Source: Deltaproteobacteria bacterium (GTDB lineage Bacteria > Desulfobacterota > Syntrophobacteria > Syntrophobacterales > Thermodesulforhabdaceae). Taken from it: a stretch of DNA of 64,000 nt. Under the pieces are notes generated by a model. It was not told the origin of the DNA. It did no database searches and saw only the letters and a program-made list of their open reading frames with translations. The translations under genes and the position numbers were made by a program. Every line of letters starts with the position of its first letter. The stretch's first letter is position 1. The stretch spans positions 1 through 64,000 of the forward strand of contig JAFDGW010000008.1 of NCBI GenBank assembly GCA_019309115.1. The letters are read 5' to 3'. Below are positions 14,201 to 16,506 of this stretch, piece after piece.

Positions 14201-15460
14201 TCACGCACTTTCTCTACCCTGACCTTCGTATATCAGCATTGGATGCTCGCCCTTTAGTACCACGTCTTCATTTATTACGCATTCCTGTACTCCGGACATT
14301 GACGGTATTTCGTACATCACATCGAGCATTATATTTTCCATTATTGCCCGAAGGCCTCTGGCTCCTGATTTTCGCTCTAAGGCTTTTCTGGCTATGGCTC
14401 TAAGCGCACCTTCCGTGAATCTAAGCCGCACATCTTCCATTTCAAAAAGACGTTGATACTGTTTTACAAGGGCGTTTCTCGGTTCCACCAGGATTTTTAC
14501 TAATTCATCTTCAGTGAGTTCATCCAATGTTGCAATCACCGGAAGACGCCCGACAAACTCAGGAATCATGCCAAACTTAATCAAATCTTCAGGTTGCACC
14601 TGGGCCAGTATTTCTCCAATCCTTTTTTCCTGCTTACTTGGTATATGTGCTCCAAAGCCTAGGCCTTTTACCCCGATTCTGCGCTGGATTATCTGATCCA
14701 GATAGTTAAAGGCTCCACCACATATAAAAAGGATATTAGTGGTATCAATTTTGATAAAATCCTGCTGTGGATGTTTCCTTCCTCCCTTGGGAGGCACATT
14801 TGACACCGTACCTTCCAGTATTTTCAACAGTGCCTGCTGGACTCCTTCTCCCGATACATCTCTCGTTATGGAAGGGCTGTCTGACTTTTTGGCTATCTTG
14901 TCAATTTCGTCTATGTAAACAATTCCTTTGGACGCCCGTTCCACATCGTAGTCAGCCGCTTGGATGAGGCTAACCAGAATGTTTTCGACGTCTTCTCCCA
15001 CATATCCGGCTTCTGTCAGTGTTGTTGCATCAGCAATGGTGAAGGGAACGTTTAAAATTTTCGCGAGTGTTTGTGCCAGCAAAGTTTTACCTGATCCCGT
15101 GGGACCTATCATAAGGATGTTGCTTTTTTCGAGTTCAACCTCCCGTTTCTTTTTATCGCTCTTTGTTTCTATGCGCTTATAATGGTTATAGACCGCAACG
15201 GAAAGGACCTTTTTAGCCTGCTCTTGACCTATCACATATTGATCCAGGATTGCTTTTATCTCGGCTGGCTTGGGAAGCTGGGAAGCCCTTTCTGCTTCTT
15301 CTCGCTCGTTTTCTTCTGCAATAATGTCATTACATAGTTCAACACATTCATCGCAAATATAAACGGTCGGCCCAGCGATTAATTTGCGAACCTCATCTTG
15401 ACTTTTCCCACAAAAAGAACACCTCAATTCTCCGGGCCGATCATCTTTCTTACGTGCCAT
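14201..15460 (-). CDS. clpX: ATP-dependent Clp protease unfoldase ClpX
   Basis: The 419-residue AAA+ unfoldase recognises tagged substrates and feeds them to ClpP. It starts with the four-Cys zinc domain ([19 protein letters not shown]), followed by Walker [16 protein letters not shown], pore loop GYVGEDVEN, Walker [12 protein letters not shown] and the C-terminal sensor region. GGGAGGAG precedes the ATG. It is followed immediately by lon. No clpP or tig is found upstream, where they usually sit; only a gene-free stretch with a candidate structured RNA is present. Confidence 0.97.
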
Positions 15461-15673
15461 GCATTACTCCTCCCTGTCCATCAAAAGTATTGCAGCAAAG
15501 GGGAGCTCTCAATCCTATACTCCACCGAATTAAACCAAGCTCCCTTCTTTCTTCTCTGGCCATTATTATAAGCACATCTCTCTACCAAATCCAGTACGGT
15601 TATTAAAGACTTAACAATGTAACCGTTACCTTCTTCCTTGTCCACAGCTTCCTGCTTCCAATCAAATTAAATG

Positions 15674-15823
15674 GTTTCGGTGGGAAATTCCACGGTGGGC
15701 CGTGAACCCAGATATAACGACTCATGCTGCCCGGCACCCTTGAGGTCATGCCCCCCTCAGGTTGCCCACAGCCACCCTCGTTATGTTAACGGCTACATTG
15801 TAGCCCATCTTCCGAGCCGAAAC
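15674..15823 (-). ncRNA. Candidate structured RNA upstream of clpX (four-way junction)
   Basis: The sequence folds by eye into a closed four-way junction. Closing stem: GTTTCGG (15674-15680) with CCGAAAC (15817-15823). Hairpin A (15682-15709): GGG/CCC, TTC/GAA and ACGG/CCGT. Long irregular hairpin B (15714-15784): ATAACGA/TCGTTAT, GCTG/CAGC, GGCA/TGCC, CCT/AGG and GAGG/CCTC, separated by small internal loops. Hairpin C (15791-15805): GGCTAC/GTAGCC. About 45 base pairs fall in 150 nt. The size and the long arm recall 6S RNA, but I cannot confirm any family. The strand is not fixed by the pairing; minus is chosen because a promoter-like TTGATT-N17-TACATT lies upstream and clpX downstream. The flanks 15461-15673 and 15824-15984 hold no gene; a GGGAGCT/AGCTCCC pair lies near 15500-15545. 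Confidence 0.45.
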
Positions 15824-15984
15824 ACACCAAATTTTTTCTGCTATTCTTGGGCAATAGCCTATCCACGTAAGTAAATGTACTCGTGAAAAATCGTAAAATC
15901 AAGTAACAGCTTGCAACCCATTTTTACCATCAGTGACAGCAAGAATAGTGAGACAAACCTGTGCGATCCGCATGCTTTACAAAA

Positions 15985-16026
15985 TGGGAAAAATAAAAAC
16001 ACGGTATCCATCACAGGACACCGTGT
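15985..16026 (-). terminator. Rho-independent terminator of cytochrome c3
   Basis: ACACGGT-A-TCC and GGA-C-ACCGTGT form an 11-position stem with one mismatch. On the minus strand it is followed by TTTTTATTTTT. It lies about 30 bp after the cytochrome c3 stop. Confidence 0.8.
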
Positions 16027-16056
16027 CTATCCCTTGGGAGGATAAAATTACCTTCT

Positions 16057-16506
16057 TTACTGGGCTTTTTTCTTGGGATGGCACTTGCTACAGGTTGTAG
16101 GTGCTTTGGTTTCTTTGTTTTCTTTTTTAAGTTTCTTGTGACAACCGACGCAGTTATTATGAAATGCCAGTTTCAGGTTAAGCTTTTGCTGTTCCGGCGG
16201 AAGCTTCTTTTCGCCCTTAATAGTTGCATCAGTGTGGCACTTTTCGCACTTATCAACCGGATCACCTTCTTTCCACACGTTCTTACCATCTTTGTAAACA
16301 TGATGGCAATCCGTACAGGCTATTTTGTAATCTTCGGCATGTTTTTTGTGGGTAAACTGAACCAATCCCTTCGTGTGTTGTTGGTATATGCTTGAGTTTA
16401 TGGTTATTACATCCGGGACATCACCCGCCTGGACAAATGCCCCACACACTATTGCTGCGACAAAGGCTACTAAGACTCCTACCTCAACCTTCCATCTTTT
16501 CACCAT
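16057..16506 (-). CDS. Periplasmic tetraheme cytochrome c3
   Basis: The 149-residue precursor has a signal peptide (about 1-27, cleavage after FVQA). The mature part has four CxxCH heme sites (CTDCH, CEKCH, CVGCH, CSKCH) and additional His residues positioned as distal ligands (FTHKKHAEDYK, AFHNN). This fits a class III cytochrome c3, the small periplasmic electron carrier of sulfate reducers that takes electrons from hydrogenases and formate dehydrogenases. The tail is Lys-rich. It is monocistronic, with its own promoter candidate and terminator. Confidence 0.93.
   Translation of the reverse strand: MVKRWKVEVGVLVAFVAAIVCGAFVQAGDVPDVITINSSIYQQHTKGLVQFTHKKHAEDYKIACTDCHHVYKDGKNVWKEGDPVDKCEKCHTDATIKGEKKLPPEQQKLNLKLAFHNNCVGCHKKLKKENKETKAPTTCSKCHPKKKAQ

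Follow-up and report, generated by a model that had tools for sequence, protein, structure and literature searches.

The question raised by positions 15674-15823 of the window (the whole stretch of DNA analysed here, 64,000 nucleotides long) is whether the sequence upstream of clpX encodes a structured RNA and, if so, of which kind. The initial annotation had counted about 45 base pairs in these 150 nt, drawn as a pair of side hairpins and a long arm closed by a 7-bp stem, with no convincing gene as far as the cytochrome terminator, and had interpreted them as a candidate four-way-junction RNA. As far as the fold itself is concerned, this description is borne out: the plus strand reaches -59.1 kcal/mol with 48 pairs in 150 nt (z = -4.55; none of 200 shuffles equally stable), in which a stem of 8 bp closes off two side hairpins and a single long arm, and no intact gene was found between clpX (15460) and the terminator (15997-16028). 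The minus strand, at -62.2 kcal/mol and z = -2.98, is of moderate fold strength, whereas the plus strand is better than all 200 shuffles. Rfam scans, at gathering or E<=10 thresholds, match no family to 15674-15823.

The fold, although real, covers merely the middle of a longer feature, namely a dispersed repeat of about 297 bp at 15623-15919, whose sense strand is the minus strand of the window, as established from the gene order of two related elements described below (C65 and G286). BLAST of 15674-15823 against its own genome detected partial copies on other contigs, and about 19 places were found when one of the other copies served as query. A profile built from 12 other genomic copies, the window being left out, matches 15919-15643 almost end to end (E = 7.7e-15), compared to a best E of 9.2 for the reversed window. 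Similarly, the covariance model R1, built on the conserved 78-nt core and again with the window left out, recovers the window core and 17 other places, i.e. 18 in this genome. Outside it, BLAST against 59 same-family to same-phylum relatives gave chance matches only and the covariance model gave no match in them; among a sample of 297 genomes of the phylum, G286 is the sole one with the core. Contigs C19, C21 and C65 end inside copies.

The aligned copies have defined ends in common, on the plus strand ACCGTTACCTTTTTCC...AAATCAAGTAACTGTTAATAACCC, and the window copy possesses both, at 15623 and 15919, correctly ordered and oriented. All copies that retain the two ends, that of the window included, show GG at both junctions and no target duplication, IS607 elements being known to insert at GG without such a duplication (PMC6188088). 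Over the core, BLAST gives the window copy no more than 71-74% identity to the others; internally it has about 80 bp that most copies lack, and it is the most diverged among the scored copies with both ends. Besides, copies C25 and C1 retain the left end (LE) and the first tnpA codons ahead of the core, a layout that would be expected of internal deletions.

A long copy of 2.1 kb on contig C65 reveals the likely parental organization: LE, IS607 TnpA, an interrupted tnpB, the core lying over the tnpB 3' end, and the right end (RE) exactly at the contig end. Its LE tip lies 53 nt ahead of tnpA, which encodes a 204-aa protein recognized as IS607 transposase (NF033518, 186 bits versus a cut-off of 110) with a MerR-type HTH and a resolvase domain. 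The C-terminal part of its TnpB matches PF07282 (67.8 bits), the guided_TnpB match being partial and below its cut-off. The same arrangement, with the core overlapping the tnpB end, occurs in G286. Scanning a collection of genome contigs with the C65 TnpA yielded distant TnpAs that lack the core and, at one contig end in the Deltaproteobacteria MAG B73_G16 (93% over 45 residues; L115:3949-4135), the same LE with a tnpA start. In the window's own genome, IS607 TnpA occurs in at least three lineages (C38/C10/C1; the C63-end/C20-end type; C65; loci L134, L135, L143; L144, L145; L077), several of the TnpA copies being cut by contig ends. One copy that lacks the right end, on C49 (L034:356-644), adjoins a C-terminal fragment of a different type of TnpB, which is truncated within the zinc-ribbon domain and probably belongs to another element; the IS200/IS605 (Y1) origin raised by this fragment was dropped once the IS607 parent had been found.

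The core conserved among the copies forms a three-way junction, with two hairpins on a closing stem of 11 pairs, and the window core folds into the same layout, with a 13-bp closing stem containing one bulge. In addition, the element terminates in GTAACGG, and these seven bases form a pseudoknot with the hairpin loop CCGTTAC. In C65, whose right-end tip reads GGTGACGG, and in G286, this pseudoknot is changed on both sides, from CCGUUAC/GUAACGG to CCGUCAC/GUGACGG, and the window copy keeps all seven pairs, two of them as G-U. The initial annotation had called for a covariation analysis of homologous upstream regions; the analysis run here covers 14 sequences of the family: 98.7% of the cells are paired, and 100% for the pseudoknot, and the covariation score of 0.154, carried by few and closely related co-varying sequences, exceeds that of all 500 shuffles (0.124+-0.007) and of slid versions (at most 0.068). 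Since in C65 the core coincides in part with the 3' end of tnpB, next to the right end, the core is, judging from sequence comparison, a TnpB right-end RNA (reRNA/omegaRNA) scaffold. TnpB reRNAs are described as RNAs of the right end that extend into the flank and have a guide-proximal pseudoknot, and the IS607 reRNA reads beyond the transposon boundary and includes a fixed flanking nucleotide (PMC8612924, PMC10711439). That the core sits at the right end of an element with tnpB is observed in C65 and G286 and extends to the window copy by homology, and the conserved scaffold with its pseudoknot adjoins the place of the guide.

What, then, becomes of the four-way junction? The exceptional stability of the plus strand stems from pairs present in the window copy alone, GTTTCGG/CCGAAAC and AUAUAACGA/UCGUUAUGU. 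In the alignment, no other copy has a counterpart of the former, the closing stem, or of the 10-bp helix in the long arm, and the homologous core by itself is of ordinary stability (z = -0.71). The four-way junction as drawn is therefore, from the alignment, a copy-specific fold laid over a conserved three-way junction, and the strong support for the core is comparative rather than thermodynamic. The proposal of a structured RNA-encoding sequence stands, the right strand being that of clpX (minus), with a three-way instead of a four-way junction as the conserved structure. The plus strand is the non-sense strand of the element and yet reaches its z of -4.55 through the copy-specific pairs, of which the transposon reading gives no account.

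Table 1. Features of the window element and its surroundings (window coordinates).
Feature	Position	Strand	Evidence
Very probable non-autonomous IS607-family element, whole	15623..15919	-	LE at 15919, RE at 15623, GG at both tips; profile E=7.7e-15, end alignment
Left end (LE), GGGTTGCAAGCTGTTACTTGATTTTACGATTTTT	15885..15919	-	LE shared with other copies, C65 parent and Deltaproteobacteria contig
Possible tnpA start remnant	15812..15866	-	GTG 53 nt from LE tip, spacing as for ATG in C65; collinear
Probable tnpB 3' end remnant	15776..15802	-	YNVAVNITR vs DYNAAVNIAK, RuvC-III region
Predicted reRNA/omegaRNA scaffold core, three-way junction	15694..15776	-	Model R1, 45.4 bits, E=9.6e-9; pair counts; same fold layout
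Loop side of pseudoknot, UCGUUAU	15714..15720	-	7/7 pairs with tip GUAACGG (5 Watson-Crick, 2 G-U)
Right end (RE), ...AGGAAGCTGTGGACAAGGAAGAAGGTAACGG	15623..15655	-	Final 7 nt form the other pseudoknot side
TATAAT, possible clpX -10 box	15565..15570	-	Between element and clpX; from sequence

As listed in Table 1, the arms of the window element hold what are probably tnpB and possibly tnpA remnants. For tnpB, shuffled sequences did as well in 1 of 300 cases over the immediate upstream region and in 5 of 300 over a longer one; the tnpA start is suggestive only, the best of four references being equalled in 32 of 500 shuffles. The initial annotation had held that a match to a decayed protein gene would speak against its proposal, and with these remnants in the arms that is partly the case. 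No ORF was found in the window copy, whose own intact tnpA is lacking; given this and the merely possible tnpA start, it is classified as a non-autonomous and not a complete IS607 element, even though its LE and RE are common to the TnpA-encoding element of C65. Taken together, the feature at 15623-15919 (minus strand) is very probably a divergent, decaying, non-autonomous IS607-family element that has kept both ends and the TnpB guide-RNA scaffold, tnpA and tnpB having been almost entirely lost by internal deletion. The direct observations behind this reading are the homology to the dispersed family, the parent with IS607 TnpA and TnpB, the three-way junction, the co-varying pseudoknot and the GG ends.

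Such an element would have arrived through the action in trans of a serine recombinase, TnpA, on a GG target, which before insertion would have read ...GGTAAAAAT-GG-TTACATTG...; the relatives have different genes upstream of clpX and hence offer no empty site for comparison. With a cognate TnpB present, an RNA running through the right end would carry about 16-20 nt of flank as guide, starting immediately beyond 15623, and the guided TnpB would cut the empty site, thereby favouring retention of the element. At present, the window copy is most likely a protein-less, divergent and decaying derivative, and it is probably inert, being the most diverged of the scored two-ended copies in a genome where the only tnpB found beside such a core, that of C65, is broken.

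The alternative that survives best, albeit as an improbable one, is that of a domesticated copy, in which the host would use the RNA or DNA structure under selection at this place, for instance as a guide RNA with TnpB or with a nuclease-dead TnpB in trans. The scaffold pairs can still be formed despite the divergence, with the once-bulged closing stem and the complete pseudoknot, and the plus-strand z score is low, in line with such a use; nevertheless, the relatives have no orthologue at the locus, hairpin B is closed by G-G in the window copy, against G-C in the other 13 sequences, and the broken tnpB of C65 also argues against it.

That the element acts in cis on clpX, as a regulatory RNA or as the leader envisaged by the initial annotation, is less probable still. 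It does fold well and, on the strand of clpX, precedes the start codon by about 160 bp. However, the family occupies 17 other places of the genome, and a TATAAT box stands between the element and clpX; a promoter scan found no full sigma-70 pair at this box (15570-15565), and G002 has a similar GCTTATAAT upstream of its clpX. Moreover, the same-family relatives that were read or compared lack the element upstream of clpX, where their neighbouring genes differ; by BLAST, it is absent there from G001-G004, G006, G009 and G011. The leader reading was rejected for the dispersal of the element in the genome and its absence from relatives, and at clpX it most likely is no more than a passenger.

As for 6S RNA, suggested by the general outline (a closing stem, a hairpin-bearing bubble and a long arm), the proposed Rfam/Infernal search makes it hardly credible: no RF00013 match exists within 15100-16100 even at E<=10. 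The true 6S gene of this genome lies outside the window, at C71:13892-14070 (99.9 bits; L031:1501-1679; G000). A chance fold of a G+C-rich intergenic stretch, with which the ordinary stability of the isolated core would agree, is just as negligible, given that none of the 200 shuffles reaches the plus-strand energy and that the homologous copies, with their covariation, profile and covariance-model matches, refute it.

Regarding the significance of these data, an RNA-looking intergenic fold may turn out to be a transposon guide-RNA scaffold that no Rfam model covers. The natural IS607 family concerned is small, with about 18 places in one genome and two in another, and most of its members are mini-elements that have lost both genes and kept the guide-RNA scaffold. 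If the copies are still transcribed, they would permit testing whether protein-less elements borrow TnpB in trans. It is conceivable, albeit unlikely, that the roughly 18 copies, with a common scaffold and differing flank guides, form a trans-encoded guide RNA set for a TnpB, active or nuclease-dead, located elsewhere in the genome; protein-less mini-elements would then share one nuclease for retention or gene control, the window copy doing so at clpX.

A limited search of the open literature turned up no account of precisely this family, but its kind is already known, of which this non-autonomous IS607 family with a TnpB guide-RNA scaffold is a further member. With the IS607 transposons, which combine the serine recombinase TnpA with TnpB, it has in common the ends, the GG junctions without target duplication and the guide-RNA scaffold at the right end, whereas the window copy differs by the lack of intact tnpA and tnpB and by its 297 bp, compared to 2.1 kb in C65. 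The TnpB reRNA/omegaRNA of ISDra2 and ISXfa1 resembles the core in its right-end position, in the overlap with the tnpB 3' end seen in the parent and in the pseudoknot between tip and hairpin loop, although the window scaffold is partly decayed; the likeness drawn here is one of position and structure. The RAGATH-18-derived reRNA of IS607 TnpBs (PMC11061315) is likewise a guide RNA of an IS607 TnpB, but that type is independent of the tnpB reading frame, which the present core overlaps, and the RAGATH-18 covariance model had no match in this stretch of the window in the Rfam scans. Finally, SMN1 of Sulfolobus (320 bp; PMC3718332) is similar as a short, protein-less and dispersed mini-element, presumably moved in trans; it belongs to a different mini-element family, and the present elements keep a guide-RNA scaffold.
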